Shown here one piece after another: positions 36,116 to 49,152 of a DNA stretch of 49,643 nucleotides; positions within the stretch are counted from its first letter, which is position 1; each line of letters opens with the position of its first letter. The notes below the pieces were generated by a model. That model was given only the letters and a program-made list of their open reading frames with translations. It was not told where the DNA came from and made no database searches. This DNA comes from Candidatus Curtissbacteria bacterium RIFCSPLOWO2_02_41_11 (GTDB taxonomy: Bacteria > Patescibacteriota > Microgenomatia > Curtissbacterales > GWA2-41-24): the NCBI GenBank assembly GCA_001775055.1, contig MFBU01000005.1:1-49643 (forward strand), written 5' to 3'. Made by a program: the position numbers and the translations under genes.

Positions 36116-37562
36116 ACTTTATAATATTAACGTCAGAAAACTTTTGTAAAAGTGTTTGATTATGGGTTTTTCCCACGCAAGATTTAAATTGCACTGCTTG
36201 GTTTTTATGGAGTGGTGACGGGATAACTTCAATGAGCCAAAATTCTTTATCCTTAAGTTTGCTTAATTCGGTTGGAATAAATCCGAGAACAGTTTTATTT
36301 ATTTGATTCATATATAGCGAGTCAATAGCTGCCCTATGATCCAATTGTGGCATTTTATAAGAATAATAGTAGAAGGTTGTCATTTCTGTGTGTAGAATTG
36401 GTTGTTTTAGGTTCACATTATTAAAAACGAAAGAATCAACGGCAGAGGAAGGTTTTTTCGCAAAAAAGATCAGGGTAGATAAAATCGTTATTATAGAAAC
36501 AATAACGTAAACATTTTTAAGAAAGCCATTTTTTGCTATGGATATGCCAATAAACAGATAAAACGGAATTGAAAAAATAAGGATTGATCTTAATCCGAAT
36601 ACTGAAAACACCATAATGGAGAAAATAATTGTTATAAGAATAGGTATTATCAGCATTATTGTTAAAAATTGCTCGTTTTTCTTCAACCGGCCCGTGAATG
36701 TGAAAGCTAAAAGCCCTATATTTACCAAAGAGAAACCCAGCAACATGATTTTTAGATTGTTAATAGATAAAATTTCAGGGTTTATGGCTATTGCTAAATT
36801 TAGCGGGAATGTGTAATGAACTGGAATCAGAAAAATTTTTTGCAGAGAAAATTGAGGCAAGGCGGCACTAGGGACGGGCTCCACTCTCAGGAAACTTAGA
36901 TAAAGTGGGAGCGTAATAAGAAGGGCTAGTATGAAAAGAATTGTGAAAGTTTTAAATTTCGAACCTAATGTTCTTATCTTATATAGAAGATAAGTGAGCA
37001 GACTCAATGTTAACACGGGGTAAAGATAATAAGTGTAATTTCCAAGAGTCATTATCGAAAATAATAAAAGGTTGTCTTTAAAAGCGGAGGAAGAATGTTT
37101 CAAAAAATTTATAAATAATATAAAAGTGAGTAAGCTTACAAGGATAGCAAAAGCATAGACTCTTAAATAAGAGCTGTAATAGATTTGAGTTGGGGACAGT
37201 GCAAAGACTAGAGCAGTCAGGATGCCCACTTTTGGATTGAAAAGAGCTCTGCCAATTAGGCCAATTATAATTATTGAGATGGTGCCGACAATTCCAGACA
37301 AGAATCTAACAACTATATAATTTTGAAAAATCTGTTCAAAAAAGTGGAGAATGAAAGACCATAAGGGAGGATAAGCACTTAAGGTTGCTTTAAGCATAGG
37401 TATAACTGCCACATTAGAAATGAGTATCTGATAAGCTTCGTCACCATCAAGCGGTAAATAAACGGCAAAAACTAACCTTATTAAACCGCCTAGAAGTGCC
37501 AGTAGGACAAGATTTGTTAAAAAGCTATTACTTTCTAATAACTTGGAGAGTTTTTTGGGCAT
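36096..37562 (-). CDS. GT39-like polytopic membrane glycosyltransferase
   Basis: I start at MPKKLSKLLESNSF (37562), because the extra 28 residues of the ORF track lie deep in the previous gene; even so the two overlap by 35 nt. The 488-aa product has LPLDGDEAYQILISN (catalytic acidic pair), AYPPLWSFILHFFEQ (PPLY-like), and SSYLRVYAFAILVSLL in the next loop. These are the landmarks of the PMT_2/ArnT group. About 11 helices are followed by a ~110-residue soluble end. Uses a polyprenyl-phosphate sugar, by family. Confidence 0.78.
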   Translation of the reverse strand: MPKKLSKLLESNSFLTNLVLLALLGGLIRLVFAVYLPLDGDEAYQILISNVAVIPMLKATLSAYPPLWSFILHFFEQIFQNYIVVRFLSGIVGTISIIIIGLIGRALFNPKVGILTALVFALSPTQIYYSSYLRVYAFAILVSLLTFILFINFLKHSSSAFKDNLLLFSIMTLGNYTYYLYPVLTLSLLTYLLYKIRTLGSKFKTFTILFILALLITLPLYLSFLRVEPVPSAALPQFSLQKIFLIPVHYTFPLNLAIAINPEILSINNLKIMLLGFSLVNIGLLAFTFTGRLKKNEQFLTIMLIIPILITIIFSIMVFSVFGLRSILIFSIPFYLFIGISIAKNGFLKNVYVIVSIITILSTLIFFAKKPSSAVDSFVFNNVNLKQPILHTEMTTFYYYSYKMPQLDHRAAIDSLYMNQINKTVLGFIPTELSKLKDKEFWLIEVIPSPLHKNQAVQFKSCVGKTHNQTLLQKFSDVNIIKYEPKTR

Positions 37563-38637
37563 AAACTTTATGAATATACTGTTTAATGTACTTATAGCAT
37601 TCTTCCCAAGAAAATTGTTTAGACCAATTGTAGCCATTTTCGGCAAATTTGGTTCTTAATGTTTCGTTTGTCAGTAAGTTAACCGCCGCTTGCGCTAAAT
37701 CTTGGGGATTGCTTTTAACCAATAACCCATTAAATCCCTCTTTTATTGAGTCAGTCAAACCTGGCACTTTATAACCAATAGGGATACAGCCTAAAGCATT
37801 GGCTTCTGTCGCAACTAAACTCCAACCCTCTCTGACTGCGGGAATAAGAATAATTTTGGCTTTTTCAAGAAGGGTTTTCTTTTTTTGATCTTTGACAAAA
37901 CCTAATAATTTAACGCTTTTTTGAAGTTTAAACTCTGTTATATGAGATTTAATCTTATCAATATAAGAACTTTTTCCGGAACCGATAATTGCCAATTTTG
38001 CATAAGGGAGTTTTTGCTGAATGGTTTTGAAGGCAAGGACAGCATCGAGAGCATTTTTTGCCGGGGTAAGACGTCCGATAAATACTAAAAGATCCTCTTT
38101 TTCGGAAGTTATTTTTGGTTTGAAATCAATTCCTGGGAGATAAGTTGTCACTTTTTCAAAACCAAGTTTTCTAAGATCAGAGGTTGTTGATTTACCAAGT
38201 GCAATAATCGGCTGATTTTTGTAAATTCTAAGATAAATTGGTTCAAGTAAATAACCGATGATATTAAGCGGGAAGATAACTTCCAAGAACCAGTACTCCC
38301 GGGCAAGCTGATGGATAAGAGTCAACGCTTTTTTCCTTGCGTAAAGAGGTGTAAAAAATGGAAGAGTATTAATCTCGTCAATAATTAAATCGAATTCATC
38401 TTTTCTTCCAACATAATAAATGAAAGCAAATAGGCGGCAAGTAATAAGCCCCCCCCGACGGATTACTTTGACTCCCTTGATGTCTTCTTTATACTTTGCC
38501 CCGGGAAATTTAGAAGTGAATAGCGTGACTTTTATGCCGTCTTTGACAAACCTGCTTGCAACTTCGATTGCCACTTTTTCTGCCCCACCGCCATCTGGGT
38601 TTTTAATATCACGCCAAGAAAGCCATAGAATTTTCAT
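37528..38637 (-). CDS. GT4-family glycosyltransferase
   Basis: The 369-aa product begins MKILWLSWRDIKNPDGGGAEKVAIEVASRF, with the GGAE loop that many GT4 enzymes use to hold the donor phosphate. The C-terminal domain starts LLVFIGRLTPAKNALDAVLAF. The EX7E-type region is REGWSLVATEANALGCIPIGY. At its end, EECYKYIKQYIHKVYAQK gives a basic helix that could bind membrane. It is an early gene of the minus-strand operon, separated from the first GT2 gene by a 149-nt dispersed repeat. Confidence 0.87.
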   Translation of the reverse strand: MKILWLSWRDIKNPDGGGAEKVAIEVASRFVKDGIKVTLFTSKFPGAKYKEDIKGVKVIRRGGLITCRLFAFIYYVGRKDEFDLIIDEINTLPFFTPLYARKKALTLIHQLAREYWFLEVIFPLNIIGYLLEPIYLRIYKNQPIIALGKSTTSDLRKLGFEKVTTYLPGIDFKPKITSEKEDLLVFIGRLTPAKNALDAVLAFKTIQQKLPYAKLAIIGSGKSSYIDKIKSHITEFKLQKSVKLLGFVKDQKKKTLLEKAKIILIPAVREGWSLVATEANALGCIPIGYKVPGLTDSIKEGFNGLLVKSNPQDLAQAAVNLLTNETLRTKFAENGYNWSKQFSWEECYKYIKQYIHKVYAQKTLQVIRK

Positions 38638-38639
38638 TG

Positions 38640-38783
38640 AGATACGAATGAGTACGAATGATAATTCTGATTTAATATATTCGCTTAAATTCGCGTGCGA
38701 GATTAACTCTCGTGAGTTCTAGGCAGGAACGAATATTCACGAATAATTATAGAACAAGTCGCCTATTCGCGTACATTCGCGAG
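38640..38783. repeat. Dispersed 10-nt-periodic palindromic element, copy 1
   Basis: ACGAATGAGTACGAAT, then ATTCGCTTAAATTCGC, then a core (GATTAACTCTCGTGAGTTC), then CGAATATTCACGAAT, then ATTCGCGTACATTCGC. Each half-site pair has a 10-nt period, and successive pairs are complementary, so two hairpins can form. The layout and core match 43765-43915. Confidence 0.75.
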
Positions 38784-38786
38784 ATG

Positions 38787-39590: not shown

Positions 39591-39923
39591 TATCTTTAAT
39601 CTAAAATAGTAAGCTTTTGGGTTACTTTAGTCCTAAATTAAGTATGAGTGCTTTTGTGATTCTTTGTCAAGCTATTAAGAATATGAGAGCTAAAGGCGAC
39701 TGAGGTTGACAGTCTTAACTGTCGTTGCTATACTTCAAGTGGTGATTTTCACTGACTGTAATTCGCAAGTTGGCGGATTAACAAGTTGGGAGACTAATTT
39801 TTTAATGTTGAAATCTATTCATTTTCTACTTTTTAAGCGGTTTTTCGCGCCCTAAAAGATTAGCTCCCACAGAATTTAATTAACAATAAAAAAGTTTCGG
39901 ACTCGATTGGCGTGCAAACAATC
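39591..39923. other. Divergent intergenic region between glycan operon and rRNA genes
   Basis: It holds the rRNA promoter at 39706-39734 and about 190 nt of leader before tRNA-Ala. I find no ORF, no 16S rRNA 3' end (no anti-Shine-Dalgarno CCTCC segment) and no second tRNA. The rRNA transcript therefore appears to begin here without 16S. Confidence 0.6.
39706..39734 (+). promoter_or_regulatory. Consensus sigma70 promoter for tRNA-Ala and 23S rRNA
   Basis: TTGACA (39706-39711), 17-nt spacer, TATACT (39729-39734). It is the best match to consensus in the window and points at the stable RNA genes 190 nt downstream. Confidence 0.7.
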
Positions 39924-39996
39924 GGGCCGATAGCTCAGTTGGTAGAGCGTTGCATTTGCACTGCAAAGGTCAGGGGTTCGAATCCCCTTCGGTCCA
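39924..39996 (+). tRNA. tRNA-Ala (anticodon TGC)
   Basis: A 73-nt cloverleaf: acceptor GGGCCGA/TCGGTCC with one G-U pair, D arm GCTCAGTTGGTAGAGC, anticodon stem TTGCA/TGCAA with loop TTTGCAC (anticodon TGC), and T arm CAGGGGTTCGAATCCCCTT-type. Discriminator is A. CCA is not encoded (ACAAA follows). Its place before 23S matches the usual spacer tRNA of bacterial rRNA operons. Confidence 0.95.
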
Positions 39997-40058
39997 CAAA
40001 GCACCTTAACAATTGAATATGGAAAGAATTAATTTAATAAAGTTCGGTTTCACAAAAC

Positions 40059-40083
40059 TAGTGTTTTAGAAACTGAATGGAAT
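40059..40083 (+). other. 5' strand of the 23S rRNA processing stem
   Basis: This segment (ending AAACTGAATGGAAT) is complementary to 43736-43760 over 14 contiguous bases plus most of the rest. It is a standard pre-23S stem for RNase III-type processing. Confidence 0.75.
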
Positions 40084-40234
40084 GGGTCAATTTTATGCGT
40101 TCAATGGATGCCTAGGTGCAACACACCGAAGAAGGACGTAGAGGGCTTACGATAAGTACCGGTGAGCTGCCGTCAAGCTTTGATCCGGTAATTTCCGAAT
40201 GGGGAAACCCGCTTGTGCATGGCACAAGAGGTTT

Positions 40235-40352
40235 GTTAAGAGGTTACGGTTACAATGCCAGTATCGTTTAGCGGTTACGTTTAGCGTTAATATTACGTTT
40301 GACGTCTAACTTTTTACGAAACGGGTTTCGTTACCGATAAACCCTAAACGAA
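40235..40352 (+). repeat. Dispersed palindromic element, copy B, inside 23S rRNA domain I
   Basis: It replaces a short loop between GGGAAACCC and GAACTGAAACATC. GTTAAGAGGTTACGGTTAC... matches 7587 onward, and ACGAAACGGGTTTCGT is a palindrome with 7-bp arms and a 2-nt loop. TCGTTTAGCGG and CCCTAAACGA form outer complementary arms. Confidence 0.7.
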
Positions 40353-40526
40353 TTTCTTGCGCTGTGCATGAGCACTTTAGTGCGAATACATAAGCGCTAG
40401 AGAGGGTACCGCCTGAACTGAAACATCTAAGTAAGGCGAGGAAAAGAAAACAAACCAGTGATTCCCTAAGTAGTGGCGAGCGAAAGGGGAAGAGCCTAAA
40501 CTTGAGCGAGGCATTGAGCCTCGCAG

Positions 40527-40633
40527 TGGGTAGTTAATAGTTGGTAGTAGGTAGTTGGCGGCAAATTAATTGCAGCTTCTACAAGCTACAAGCGAGTCGA
40601 GTCCGACTCGACGAGTGAACTACTAACTACAAG
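40527..40633 (+). repeat. 7-nt-periodic palindrome in 23S rRNA domain I
   Basis: Left arm is built of 7-mers GTAGTTA, ATAGTTG, GTAGTAG, GTAGTTG. The right arm AACTACTAACTAC is the complement in register. A GC-rich hairpin (GTCGAGTCCGACTCGAC) sits between them. Confidence 0.7.
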
Positions 40634-40859
40634 TCGAATTCATTCGGCGTACTGCGAAGCTGAAAGCTTCGCTTGAGGGTTGCGGGACTCAAATATGAGA
40701 CTATTGCGGATAGCAGAATAATCTGGAATGGTTGGCCATAGATGGTGAAAGCCCAGTATGTGAAATTCAAGATAGCTCTATGAGTATCCCAAGTACTACG
40801 GGACACGCGAAATCCTGTAGGAATCCGGCTCGACCATGAGCCAAGGCTAAATATGTGTT

Positions 40860-40899
<40 letters not shown>

Positions 40900-41696
40900 G
40901 AGTACCCCGGAAGGGGAATGAAAAGTACCTGAAATTGAACGCTAACAAGCAATCGGAGCCCCGCTCTTTTTGCGCGTAAGAAGACCATGATTTAAGGCTA
41001 GTAAAGTCGTGTTTAGATTAAGTCACGGTTTTGTCTTGTGTCCAAAAAGAGCGGGGTGACGGTGTGCCTATTGAAGAATGAACCGGTGAGTTTTATCATG
41101 CTGTAGTCTAACCCCGCTAAGCGGGGGGAGGCAGAGTGAAAGCAAGCGTTAATAGCGCGTTTTAATACAGCATGTTAAAGACCCGAAACCGCGTGAGCTA
41201 ACCATGACCAGGATGAAGTCCCGCTAACGCGGGATGGAGGTCCGAACCCGTGTCAGATGCAAGTGGTTGGGATGAGTTGTGGTTAGGGGTGATATGCCAA
41301 TCGAACGCGGAGATAGCTGGTTCTCCCCGAAATATATTTAGGTATAGCCCTTGTCTAACTTCACAGGGGTAGAGCACTGAATGGGTGATGCGAAGCAATT
41401 TGTGTCATTCAATCAAACTACGAATACTGTGAAACAAATTGGGCGAGGAGTCAGTCCGACCCGGATAAGCGGGCCAGGGCTAAAGGGAAACAACCCAGAT
41501 CCAAAGCTAAGGTCCCAAAGTGTATTTTAAGTGTTAAAGGTAGTACTAGCGCCAAGACAGCAAGGAGGTTGGCTTAGAGGCAGCCATCCTTTAAAGAAAG
41601 CGTAACAGCTCACTTGTCGATTGCGGTAGTGCGCCGACAATGTACCGGGGCTCAAAAATACCACCGAAGCTTGGGATTTGTCCGAAGGACAAATAT

Positions 41697-41779
41697 CGCG
41701 GAACTAAGCAGAACTTTACGCAGAAATACGCAGGATTGTCGGCGTTATTCCGCGTTTAGTTCAGCGTTTTTCAGCGGTA
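41697..41779 (+). repeat. 10-nt-periodic palindrome in 23S rRNA
   Basis: The left arm has ACGCAGAAAT, ACGCAGGATT and GCAGAACTTT decamers. The right arm has CCGCGTTTAG, TTCAGCGTTT and TTCAGCGG. The arms are complementary in register. It lies between ACCGAAGCTT and GGTAGGGGAGCG, where E. coli has only a short stem-loop. Confidence 0.65.
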
Positions 41780-42355
41780 CTTGCCCTTCGGGCAAGTGGT
41801 AGGGGAGCGTTTGCATTGCGGTGAAGGTCACGGCGTAAGCCGGACTGGAGCGATGCGAAGTGAGAATGCCGGTATGAGTAGCGAAAGTCCCGTGGGAATC
41901 GGGACCGCCGAATGTCCAAGGTTTCCTACGCAACGTTCGTCGACGTAGGGTTAGTCGGTCCTAAGGCGAGGCCAGAAGGCGTAGTCGATGGATAAGCAGT
42001 TAATATTCTGCTACTTTGGCAAAATCGTTTTAAAGCAAAGGGAAGACGAAAATGGAAAATTCCTAGGTCGAAATGATACGGCCCCTAAAAAGTAAGAAAG
42101 TAAAATGTGGAAAATCCCTTTTTATGATTATTCGAGCTTTGATGGTTAGCTGCCGCAAGGTGGCAAAAGGAAAAGTTTCAATTTCCAAGAAATTTTCTCG
42201 TTGTTAGATTTTATCAAAACCGTACCTAAACCGACACAGGTGGACTGGTATTAGAGTACCAAGGCGAGCGAGAAAACTATCCTTAAGGAACTCGGCAATA
42301 TAACTGGACGTACCTTTGGTAGATGTCCTCCCTGGCCGTCTTTCAGACGGCTACA

Positions 42356-42450
42356 GTTGACATTTGACATCTGACAACTGACAAAATTGGAATTTTTTAT
42401 TTACAAATTTTCCGCTTAAGTCAATTGTCAATTGTTATTTGTTATTTGTT
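42356..42450 (+). repeat. 7-nt-periodic palindrome in 23S rRNA
   Basis: Left arm: TTGACATTTGACATCTGACA and ACTGACAAA (TGACANN period 7). Right arm: GTCAATTGTCAATTGTTATT and TGTTATTTGTT. The arms are complementary and enclose about 36 nt. Confidence 0.7.
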
Positions 42451-42778
42451 GCCGCCCGACGGGCGGCTGGGGCGCAGTTAACGACGCCAGGCGACTGTTT
42501 AACAAAAACACAGGTCTCTGCAAAGTCGAAAGACGAAGTATAGAGGCTGACACCTGCCCAGTGCTCGTAGGTTAATCGTCTGAGGTGATCTGTCTTTGGA
42601 CAGTGAGCTTCGGATGCAAGCCCGGGTAAACGGCAGCAGTAACTATAACTGTTCTAAGGTAGCGAAATTCCTTGTCGGGCAAGTTCCGACCCGCACGAAA
42701 GGTTGAACGACTCGGCGACTGTCTTGAGGATAGACTCGGCGAAATTGCAATGGCTGTGAAGATGCGGCCAACTTGCAC

Positions 42779-42809
<31 letters not shown>

Positions 42810-42953
42810 CAGCTTGGCATTGATTTGGAGATTAGACTTGTATAGCGTAGGAGGGAGCCAGGTACCGTTTGGTACCTGGCGACAATGTAACACCTCCCGG
42901 TTTGCTTTTCAAATCTTACCGTTTGTCCTAATAAAATACGGGAGACGGGACAG

Positions 42954-43007
<54 letters not shown>

Positions 43008-43150
43008 TACAAAGGTCGACTCAACTCCTACAGAAACGGAGCGTTAGAGTGCAAAGGCATAAGTCGGCTTAACTGTAAGTGGTACATCACGAGCAGATGC
43101 GAAAGCAGGTCTTAGTGATCCTCACGTTGCTTATGGGAGCGCGTGAGCTT

Positions 43151-43183
<33 letters not shown>

Positions 43184-43617
43184 GATCTTCCCCAAGAGTC
43201 CATATCGACGGGAAGGTTTGGCACCTCGATGTCGGCTCACCGTATCCTCCCGCTGAAGTAGGCGGGAAGGGTTGGGCTGTTCGCCCATTAAAACGGTACG
43301 CGAGCTGGGTTCAGAACGGCGTGAGCCAGTTCGGCCTCTATCCGGTGCAAGCGTTTGATACTTGAGGGGGGTCACCACTAGTACGAGAGGACCGTGGTGA
43401 GTTAGCCTCTAGTGTGCCAGTTGTCACATCAGTGGCAGTGCTGGGTAGCCACGCTAATAACTGAGAAGCGCTGAAAGCATCTAAGCGCCAAACAGGCCCC
43501 AAGACTAGGTATCTGTAAGATCCGTTGTAGACTACGACGTTGATAGGCGGCAGGTGTAAAGCAAGTAATTGTTGTCGCGCGCAAGCGCGAGAGCGCTTAG
43601 CGGAATGCGTGGACTAT

Positions 43618-43735: not shown

Positions 43736-43760
43736 ATTCCATTCAGTTTCGAAGACACTA
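43736..43760 (+). other. 3' strand of the 23S rRNA processing stem
   Basis: ATTCCATTCAGTTTCGAAGA and following bases pair with 40059-40083. Confidence 0.75.
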
Positions 43761-43764
43761 GATA

Positions 43765-43915
43765 TGTATGCGAATCAATGCGAATAGGTATGGCGGTTTA
43801 TCTTATTCGCTCAAATTCGCATGGGAGGATTACTTCTGTGAGTAGTTCTTAGCATGCGAATATAAACGAATATTTTAAGGCTGATAAGCACATTAGATAA
43901 AATTCGCGTATTGTA
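43765..43915. repeat. Dispersed 10-nt-periodic palindromic element, copy 2
   Basis: GCGAATCAATGCGAAT, then ATTCGCTCAAATTCGC, a core with GATTACTTCTGTGAGTAGTTC, then CGAATATAAACGAAT, and finally ATTCGCGTA. Same order and orientation as 38640-38783, 5 kb away. Confidence 0.75.
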
Positions 43916-44015: not shown

Positions 44016-44480
44016 ATGATTGTTGAAAGATTAGACTATTTTGGCAAAATTGCTGCTAGAAAAGATCCAGATAATTATGAGCAGCAGTTAGAGCCGGAAG
44101 CAATCGGCTTTATAAAAGGGGTATTTAAGCTTCACCCTGATATTAGGATTCATTTGGCTAGACGTGATCCAAGAGTCTGTGAATTACTGCACACCGCTGA
44201 AGACAGGGATGCTTTTAAGCAGGCCATGGAGGGAGTTTTCGGAGGGGATACAGTCCATGTACTTGCGACAGCGGAACAGGATTTAATGGAATTAGTAGGA
44301 CCGGTAATGACTGGAAAGCCTTCTCTAAGATTAGCAGAAATCTATGCGGATGATCCAGAGATGGTGTTGCATTTAAAAGATATCGTGACAACTGCAAAAA
44401 GGATTATTGGCGGGCTTAAAGATGAATTGCAACCGATTGTCAGAGAACCTGTTTTGGTACCCGCTTCCATAACTTATTGA
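44016..44480 (+). CDS. Protein of unknown function lying between 23S and 5S rRNA
   Basis: The 154-aa, acidic, soluble-looking protein has a good ribosome site (GGGAGG, 7 nt before ATG). No signal peptide or membrane helix is seen. Predicted to be mostly helical, with VCELLHTAEDRDAFKQAMEGVFGGD and a C-terminal helix HLKDIVTTAKRIIGGLKDELQPIV. No family is recognised and no catalytic pattern is obvious. Its stop codon overlaps the -35 element of the 5S promoter. Its place inside a would-be rRNA operon is unusual and might hint at a role tied to ribosome synthesis, but that is only positional. Confidence 0.6.
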   Translation: MIVERLDYFGKIAARKDPDNYEQQLEPEAIGFIKGVFKLHPDIRIHLARRDPRVCELLHTAEDRDAFKQAMEGVFGGDTVHVLATAEQDLMELVGPVMTGKPSLRLAEIYADDPEMVLHLKDIVTTAKRIIGGLKDELQPIVREPVLVPASITY

Positions 44481-44512: not shown

Positions 44513-44630
44513 TGCTGGTGTCTGTAGCGATATGGAACCACTCCTTCCCATTTCGAACAGGATAGTGAAACGTATCAGCGGCGACAATAGTGCCTGGGCA
44601 ACTGGGTGCGAAGATAGCTCGATGCCAGCA
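44513..44630 (+). rRNA. 5S ribosomal RNA
   Basis: The 118-nt segment closes with TGCTGG/CCAGCA (helix I). It contains GTAGCGATATGGAACCACTC, then CCCATTTCGAACAGG (loop C region), GTGAAACG, and TGGGTGCGAAGATAGCTCG, all in canonical 5S order. It is separated from 23S by 777 nt and a protein gene. Confidence 0.93.
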
Positions 44631-47934: not shown

Positions 47935-49152
47935 TTGTTAAAATCAAAATCCTCAAAACCAACGGGATCTTCTCGCGCTAAACCCTTCGGTAAAACTCAG
48001 GGTAAACCTACCTCAATGGAGGAGTTACTCGCCTCAAGCGGGTACCAAATTCCTTCAATTCGGCGTGGACAGGAAGTAAGCGGTAAAATCGTTTCGATTT
48101 CCCATTCGGAGATCTTAGTTGATATCGGCGCCAAAAGCGAAGGAATTGTTGCCAGCAGGGAAATGTCTTCTATCCGAGATATCATTTCCGGGCTTTCTGT
48201 GGGAGACACGATTGATGTGACGGTTATCTACCCGGAAAATGACGCCGGTCAAGTGGTGCTTTCAATGCGCAAGCTTTCGCAGGATGTCCGTTGGCAGGAT
48301 CTTGAGGATAAAAAGAATAGCGATGAGGAGATTGGAGTAGTTGCTCTTGAGGTCAATCGAGGCGGTGTAATCTGTGATTATACGGGACTGCGCGGGTTTT
48401 TGCCGGCTTCGCTGCTTACTAAAATCCCTTCGAATCTTGCCGATTTAATCGGTAAGAGCCTGACTGCTCGGGTTATTGAAGTTGACAGGCAAGGCAATAG
48501 ACTTATTTTTTCCCAAAAGCAGCCTGACACTAAAGATCTTAAGGCTATTGGCAAGCTTTTAGCGAAGGTCAAGATAGGCCAGAAGCTTGCCGGAGTGGTT
48601 AGCGCGATTTTACCATTTGGAATTTTTGTGGAAGTTAACGTAAACGGTAAAGAAGGTCAAGAAGGTAAGGATGGTTCGGAAGGTGAAAAATTGAAACCTT
48701 CTAAGTCTTCTCAACCCTCCCAACCTTCTAAATCTTCTAAGCTCGAGGGCTTAGTGCATATATCGGAGATTTCCTGGGAGAAAGTTGAAGATCCTTCCAG
48801 GCTTTTTAAAGTAGGGGATCGCGTCGAGGTAATGGTAATTGCTAAGGAAGAGGCAACCGGCAGGTTAAATCTGTCGATCAAACAGCTGGCTCACGATCCC
48901 TTTTTGGAAGCATCGGCGGCCTTTTCCAAAGACGAAGAGGTTACCGGCAGTGTAGCCAGAGTTACCCCTTATGGAGTTTTTATGACTTTGAAAAACGGGG
49001 TTGAGGGTTTTGTGCCTATCTCCAAAATTTCTCCAAACGAGAATTATCAAATCGGGCAGAAAATTACCTGTACGATTGAGTCAATCGATTCAAAAGCCCG
49101 GCGAATTTCGCTTTCGCCACTGGTTCGAGAAAAACCGATTTTGTATAGGTAG
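47935..49152 (+). CDS. rpsA: S1-domain RNA-binding protein (ribosomal protein S1-like)
   Basis: The 405-aa product has four S1/OB-fold repeats: GQEVSGKIVSISHSEILVDIG (about 45-110), a degenerate second repeat with GGVICDYTGLRGFLPASLL, a third starting GQKLAGVVSAILPFGIFVEV, and a fourth DEEVTGSVARVTPYGVFMTL (about 325-400). MEELLASSGYQIP ahead of repeat 1 is usual for compact S1 proteins. Repeat 3 is split by a 30-residue GKEGQEGKDGSEGE / KPSKSSQPSQPSK insertion encoded by a 9-nt-periodic palindrome. The start is uncertain: TTG 47935 follows GGAAG, but an ATG at 47931 opens a 16-codon peptide in another frame; ATG 48016 is a shorter option. It binds mRNA on the 30S subunit, by family. Confidence 0.85.
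   Translation: MLKSKSSKPTGSSRAKPFGKTQGKPTSMEELLASSGYQIPSIRRGQEVSGKIVSISHSEILVDIGAKSEGIVASREMSSIRDIISGLSVGDTIDVTVIYPENDAGQVVLSMRKLSQDVRWQDLEDKKNSDEEIGVVALEVNRGGVICDYTGLRGFLPASLLTKIPSNLADLIGKSLTARVIEVDRQGNRLIFSQKQPDTKDLKAIGKLLAKVKIGQKLAGVVSAILPFGIFVEVNVNGKEGQEGKDGSEGEKLKPSKSSQPSQPSKSSKLEGLVHISEISWEKVEDPSRLFKVGDRVEVMVIAKEEATGRLNLSIKQLAHDPFLEASAAFSKDEEVTGSVARVTPYGVFMTLKNGVEGFVPISKISPNENYQIGQKITCTIESIDSKARRISLSPLVREKPILYR
48647..48740 (+). repeat. 9-nt-periodic palindrome in frame inside the S1 gene
   Basis: Left arm AAGAAGGTCAAGAAGGTAAG has a 9-nt period (AAGAAGGTN). Right arm ACCTTCTAAGTCTTCTCAAC and CTTCTAAATCTTCTAAG has the complementary CTTCTAAGT unit. A period of 9 keeps the frame, giving Lys/Glu/Gly repeats then Pro/Ser/Lys repeats. 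Confidence 0.75.

Follow-up and report, generated by a model that had tools for sequence, protein, structure and literature searches.

The window analyzed here, a stretch of 49,643 nucleotides from Candidatus Curtissbacteria bacterium RIFCSPLOWO2_02_41_11, contains two copies of a quasi-palindrome of about 143 bp composed of eight RCGAAT/ATTCGY boxes, which form four pairs with each pair at 10 nt. We give about an even chance to the reading that it is a lineage-specific dispersed extragenic palindromic repeat residing in transcribed rRNA spacers, the boxes of which are kept as candidate protein-recognition sites. Built from boxes, the element looks like a new type among the extragenic palindromic repeats that other bacteria are known to carry. 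Contig C5, to which the window belongs, is part of a 1.08-Mb genome (G000; 25 contigs, completeness 99.83), for which whole-genome gene calls were made with a crude codon-usage caller.

Structure of the element in the window

The first copy, el1 (38641–38783, delimited by sequence, box scan, and profile R1), occupies the entire gap (38638–38786) between two minus-strand glycosyltransferase genes, and the start codon of one of them (37528–38637, identified by ORF, Pfam, and relatives) abuts the element. Its boxes lie at 38644, 38654, 38679, 38689, 38729, 38739, 38765, and 38775. The second copy, el2, is situated in the 23S trailer (43767–43910, plus strand; sequence and profile R1, 3.5e-24 on the plus strand) with boxes at 43770, 43780, 43805, 43815, 43856, 43866, 43892, and 43902, of which the one at 43892 has decayed to ATTAGA. 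The layout is RCGAAT-N4-RCGAAT, N18-19, ATTCGY-N4-ATTCGY, and about N35, the whole series then being repeated once, with 34 to 35 nt from A pair to B pair, 85 to 86 nt from A pair to A pair, and aligned ends of the form ACGAAT...ATTCGT. Box pairs at 10 nt (four CGAAT-N5-CGAAT and three ATTCG-N5-ATTCG) occur in the window only within el1 and el2, and no CGAAT or ATTCG pair at a spacing of 9 or 11 was present anywhere in it.

Aligned in the same orientation, the two copies share 100 identities over 143 nt, about 70% identity in a gapped alignment, and only 1 of 2,000 box-preserving shuffles scored as high, so the common core is real. The preliminary description had reported two copies with the same order, the same orientation, and a common core. 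The copies, their order, and their core are present, in a four-pair structure larger than the one described. The shared orientation holds insofar as el1 and el2 align the same way, but it is soft because the unit is a quasi-palindrome: against the profile, el1 scores nearly equally or higher in reverse (38641–38782, 2.6e-21 on the minus strand and 1.3e-14 on the plus strand), and its own orientation is ambiguous.

Association with rRNA genes

The 23S transcription unit of the window runs on the plus strand from a promoter predicted by consensus scans (TTGACA-17-TATACT, 39706–39734), which is also present at the same place in G006, a genome of the sister genus within the same family, through tRNA-Ala(TGC) (39924–39997, ARAGORN) and a 23S rRNA gene with insertions (40087–43606, Rfam RF02541, 2363 bits) to the 5S rRNA gene (44514–44630, Rfam RF00001). 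A motif scan across relatives located the boxA-like antitermination motif GCACCTTAACAATTGAA before 23S (40001–40017, plus strand). A boxA-like GYACCTTAACAAYTGAA lies downstream of the 16S-leader box element in G000 and G006 and also upstream of 23S, and the boxA-like antitermination motif GCACYTTAACAAYTGAA lies upstream of 16S and 23S in G000 and G006 and of 23S in G014. An inverted-repeat search (I1) detected a putative processing stem around 23S, with arms at 40052–40083 and 43736–43767 (plus strand) that are 88% complementary over 32 nt; it is separate from the box element, and el2 starts at the end of its 3′ arm. An ORF at 44016–44480 separates 23S from 5S; an ORF occupies this place in G006 and G012 too, but no similarity in sequence to that of the window could be detected. 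Heptamer-period arrays (TGACAAT and AACTACC types), the strongest periodic words in G000, were observed at 40530–40640 and 42352–42450 of the window and in many intergenic regions of the genome; they fill insertions inside 23S and resemble cyanobacterial heptanucleotide repeats.

A sequence profile built from 17 copies and searched against G000 and its relatives returned exactly four full-length copies in G000, and the remaining matches were far weaker (E above 1e-4). Besides el1 and el2, these are el3 (C20:53408–53549), 174 bp downstream of 16S, and el4 (C20:55419–55562), 211 bp upstream of it. The 16S gene (C20:53723–55208, minus strand) is on another contig than 23S, and the two loci are unlinked, at least ~50 kb apart with the contig ends as bound. 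The tRNA-23S unit had been described as bracketed by the two window copies. The link to rRNA proved stronger than was seen then, with four of four full copies beside 16S or 23S at two loci and most G006 copies likewise, and the bracketing requires a correction: el2 follows 23S by ~160 bp, and el1 is 1.14 kb upstream of tRNA-Ala with one glycosyltransferase gene in between. All four copies lie ≤1.35 kb from 16S or 23S, a zone that makes up 1.7% of the intergenic DNA of G000, which gives a probability of chance placement of about 9e-8 when the copies are treated as independent.

At the 16S locus, a predicted promoter (TTGACA-17-TAGAAT) has its −10 hexamer 6 to 8 nt before the start of el4, and G006 has the same promoter sequence with a box array directly behind it, starting at the predicted +1. 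Because the predicted promoter directly precedes it in both genomes, the 16S-leader element probably forms the beginning of the pre-16S transcript, which in G000 would be opened by el4. The 16S leader is longer in G000 and G006 than in the element-free G014.

Genome-wide distribution of the boxes

In G000, CGAAT-N5-CGAAT forms 33 pairs at 10 nt, compared to a mean of 3.2 at other spacings and to a single pair for the reversed-pattern control, and 28 of the 33 pairs are located between genes, although intergenic DNA makes up 18% of the genome. Chance clustering of the boxes was ruled out by the window scan, the spacing counts, and the reversed control. Since the 10-nt spacing is enriched and the core aligns, the motif is neither scattered at random distances nor confined to the half-sites.

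Shorter box arrays occur in the groES-groEL, rpsS-rplV, rpsN-rpsH, and atpD-atpC gaps, with gene names that we assigned from the protein starts. Some arrays are direct and have no inverse partner. The atpD-atpC gap is represented twice in the assembly (C16:14818–14958 and C7:705–1240), in one version with a box array up to the start codon of atpC and in the other with a longer spacer and no array.

Other repeats were observed in the intergenic DNA of G000. A second palindromic family consists of ATTAGTAT/ACTAAT words in 7- to 10-nt steps (C9:3680–3742, C14:40492–40562, C15:40812–40871, C15:92013–92074, C22:16067–16118, and C22:32197–32268). Tandem ATTCGGATNA/ATTAGGATNA decamers lie close to, or extend as far as, the starts of dnaK, rplC, HU, and a PBP-like gene (C14:38452–38564, C14:88764–88950, C14:113680–113726, and C25:28561–28600) and may be a separate regulatory array. 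Very large proteins of one homology group, with box arrays nearby, are encoded in G000 (C20:22881–29357 and C10:2785–6375) and at L111 and L112; the N-terminal stretch of the L111 protein matches transposase-type helix-turn-helix families.

Gain and loss among relatives

The profile search found 12 full copies in G006, 7 of them no more than ~1.5 kb away from 16S or 23S. Around tRNA-Ala and 23S, three are upstream, one is located close to the 3′ end of 23S, and one follows the gene; of the others, two are located around 16S, one beside a tRNA pair, and four in the S1-radA block, which in the window follows the 5S gene. Six G006 copies at different loci share 57 to 81% of their non-box positions, which points to recent copying. 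The G006 16S gene was also seen to contain an ORF (L103 5815–6189) resembling, by eye, 23S intervening-sequence proteins.

In G008, copies were found upstream of the el1 glycosyltransferase gene and between radA and its neighbor. In the neighborhood of this glycosyltransferase gene, the element is present in G000, G006, and G008 and absent in G013. In G014, G007, and G009, the profile search and locus comparison detected rRNA genes and essentially no elements. Box arrays in G012 and G006 occupy 23S insertion gaps, as seen in alignments with the 23S of G014, which has no boxes. The four-box core pattern was present in two of 192 genomes drawn from across the phylum, G000 and G006, both of the same family.

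Judged from these comparisons of sequence, relatives have gained and lost element copies at syntenic positions; an AtpD tree used for placing the events gave no resolved branching. The suggestion that the element is mobile is in part borne out, by presence and absence at syntenic sites, by arrays inside 23S genes, and by similar G006 copies at different loci. No target-site duplication was found, the ends being inverted repeats and the empty site of G013 too diverged to show one, nor was a mobilizing gene, with no convincing recurrence of a gene family among the neighbors of the boxes. A viral origin was rejected, with two matches in a viral contig collection, and a plasmid search for the element gave no match.

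Box palindromes in other phyla

A scan of 84,980 species genomes for the four-box pattern yielded at least 117 stretches, whereas we estimate that chance would produce fewer than one. Among the matches listed, these belong mainly to Chloroflexota and Verrucomicrobiota, and also to Acidobacteriota, Planctomycetota, and others. The unit there is ACRCGAATNN in nested inverted arrays, mostly intergenic, with no clear rRNA link and no shared neighbor gene among the matches listed. These CRCGAATNNA palindromes resemble the window element in the same box, the 10-nt steps, and the inverted nesting; they differ in having eight fixed and two free bases, two to three boxes per arm, a length of about 70 to 100 bp, and no evident rRNA link. 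No paper describing them was found.

Conservation of the boxes and alternative explanations

In orthologous copies of el1, the boxes are 78 to 80% identical, figures affected by ascertainment as copies were located via their boxes, and the rest is 33 to 39% identical, with a spacer similarity that did not exceed that of shuffles at the usual threshold. Neutral decay alone is unsuited to explain the element because the boxes were kept while the spacers were randomized.

Pairing of the boxes left no trace in their evolution. The GCGAAT and ATTCGC pairs had been proposed to alternate so that each pair can bind the next, which is geometrically possible but goes together with no covariation between partners and with direct arrays that have no inverse partner. 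In the 17 copies, no box-partner covariation was detected under cloverleaf, nested, or two-hairpin models, with 89.7% paired cells observed and 89.2% in shuffles. The 105 elements examined in other phyla showed agreement between nested partners in 167 of 210 cases and between non-partners in 169 of 210, and G.T combinations (23) were not commoner than A.C (20). As the partners do not covary, the boxes look constrained as sequence and not as stems.

The two strands of the boxes show a mild asymmetry. Departures from the core number 4 of 320 in sense-strand RCGAAT and 16 of 320 in ATTCGY (P = 0.01), and 13 of the 14 clearly oriented full copies point along transcription, the others being ambiguous (leave-one-out profile scoring of 16 copies). 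Both counts rest on related copies; together, they hint at a directional or RNA-level reading of the boxes.

In the dispersed-repeat explanation that we prefer, a protein would read every box by its sequence, with one box to a helical turn, either on double-stranded DNA or on nascent rRNA, and new copies would result from occasional copying events into transcribed DNA that is non-coding and would tolerate a self-complementary insert.

The strongest rival to this explanation, though a distinctly less probable one, is a host cis-regulatory array, in which the boxes of 16S and 23S leaders and trailers are read by a DNA- or RNA-binding protein, dimeric or oligomeric, that tunes or coordinates the unlinked rRNA units. 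The confinement of all four full G000 copies to rRNA loci argues for such a host role, as a selfish repeat need not be so confined, and the start of el4 just after the −10 hexamer, the conserved promoter and +1 array of G006, the retention of boxes beside diverged spacers, the bias along transcription, and the lower variability of RCGAAT agree with it. Against it, G014, G007, G013, and G009 have intact rRNA genes and no element, copies also reside in the glycosyltransferase and radA gaps, no candidate binder was found, and the supporting counts are not independent because the copies are related. In a stricter form, which we put forward tentatively and with more reserve, the element would be an rRNA-specific cis-acting array: a putative protein would read its RCGAAT boxes, spaced by one helical turn, where the unlinked 16S and 23S units begin and end, and would coordinate the synthesis or maturation of these units.

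An RNA-processing hairpin or cloverleaf, into which the transcript of the element would fold and which an enzyme such as RNase III would cleave so that rRNA, tRNA, or mRNA parts come apart, is improbable. It would suit the transcribed positions, the good folding of el2 (z −5.4), the arrays in 23S insertion loops of the kind excised as intervening sequences, and the 16S gene, around which a classical inverted repeat was looked for and none was found. It is opposed by the missing covariation, by partners agreeing no better than non-partners, by a forward-strand fold that, corrected for composition, does not exceed the reverse in stability (9 of 17), and by direct-only arrays, which are unable to fold in this way. 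A role as the rRNA processing stem itself was rejected, since 23S has its separate flanking repeat and the element shows no compensatory changes.

A recombination site or insulating boundary around the rRNA locus, as first considered, is very improbable: related copies do stand on either side of the tRNA-23S unit and of 16S, but at about 70% identity they are too diverged for efficient homologous recombination to be likely, no rearrangement between them was seen, synteny upstream is kept in G006, G008, and G013, and nothing in the analysis supports insulation. Least credible is that gyrase or another topoisomerase wraps the element as a strong site, in the manner of E. coli BIME-2: strong gyrase sites occur downstream of rRNA operons and in BIME-2 and have evenly phased arms (PMC6379681), and the element would resemble them in its ~140 bp, its symmetry, and its place beside the most transcribed genes, but its CG-step offsets within one arm (10, 26, and 10 bp) depart from the even ~10.7-bp gyrase phasing, and the A and B boxes of one arm do not share a helical phase, their CG steps being 36 bp (about 3.4 turns) apart.

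Comparison with known repeats and partner proteins

REP/BIME elements are extragenic palindromes with a GTAG or CGTC tag and hairpins of 20 to 40 bp (PMC3733652). The window element is similarly dispersed, palindromic, extragenic, and present in multiple copies, often between co-directional genes, and both kinds occur in several phyla and can form mosaics of inverted units. In contrast to REP/BIME, it is about 143 bp long with eight boxes at one-turn spacing and no GTAG/CGTC tag, has 4 to 12 full copies only, is rRNA-centered, and does not flank RAYT-like genes. RAYT-like Y1 transposase genes are present in G000 (C25:25983–26312 and C9:44170–44397) and at L303 and L313, and some are flanked by inverted repeats of their own (CACCCCTGGGGTG-type) that have no relation to the boxes. 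A RAYT-mobilized REP was rejected, box pairs being absent beside both Y1_Tnp genes of G000.

ERIC/MITE-type elements are quasi-palindromic, about 100 to 150 bp long, and located in transcribed intergenic DNA. The window element shares this length, symmetry, and setting, as well as gain and loss between relatives, but no defined terminal repeats with target duplication were found in it, and its constraint lies in internal boxes. The 23S intervening sequences are insertion loops removed from 23S; the arrays in 23S insertion gaps of G012 and G006 are like them, whereas the window copies lie outside mature rRNA. Short boxes, one per helical turn, are also a feature of MraZ boxes, which are direct repeats of TGGG/TGGTG type with a 10-bp period upstream of mraZ. 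An MraZ operator was rejected, as the mraZ gene of G000 (C15 around 48875–49100) has its own four ATGGTGANNA boxes upstream in 10-nt steps and direct order, which differ in sequence and layout.

No gene family recurs convincingly beside the boxes, and the search for a box-binding partner protein gave no candidate. A GxxExxY nuclease or 23S IVS-protein partner, suggested by the neighbors at C20:22398, was rejected, with no association in the at least 117 loci in other genomes. In the literature searched, no description of these boxes was found.

Implications

Patescibacteria have tiny genomes, many with unlinked rRNA genes and insertion-laden rRNAs, and few recognized regulators. The occurrence of full G000 copies at rRNA loci only and the persistence of their boxes point to either an rRNA-specific control or maturation site or a repeat specialized for rRNA spacers. 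If true, the rRNA-specific array would be a control system not described in Patescibacteria. The box-at-10-nt design recurs in several other phyla, which suggests that such palindromic repeats belong to a wider class not yet catalogued.
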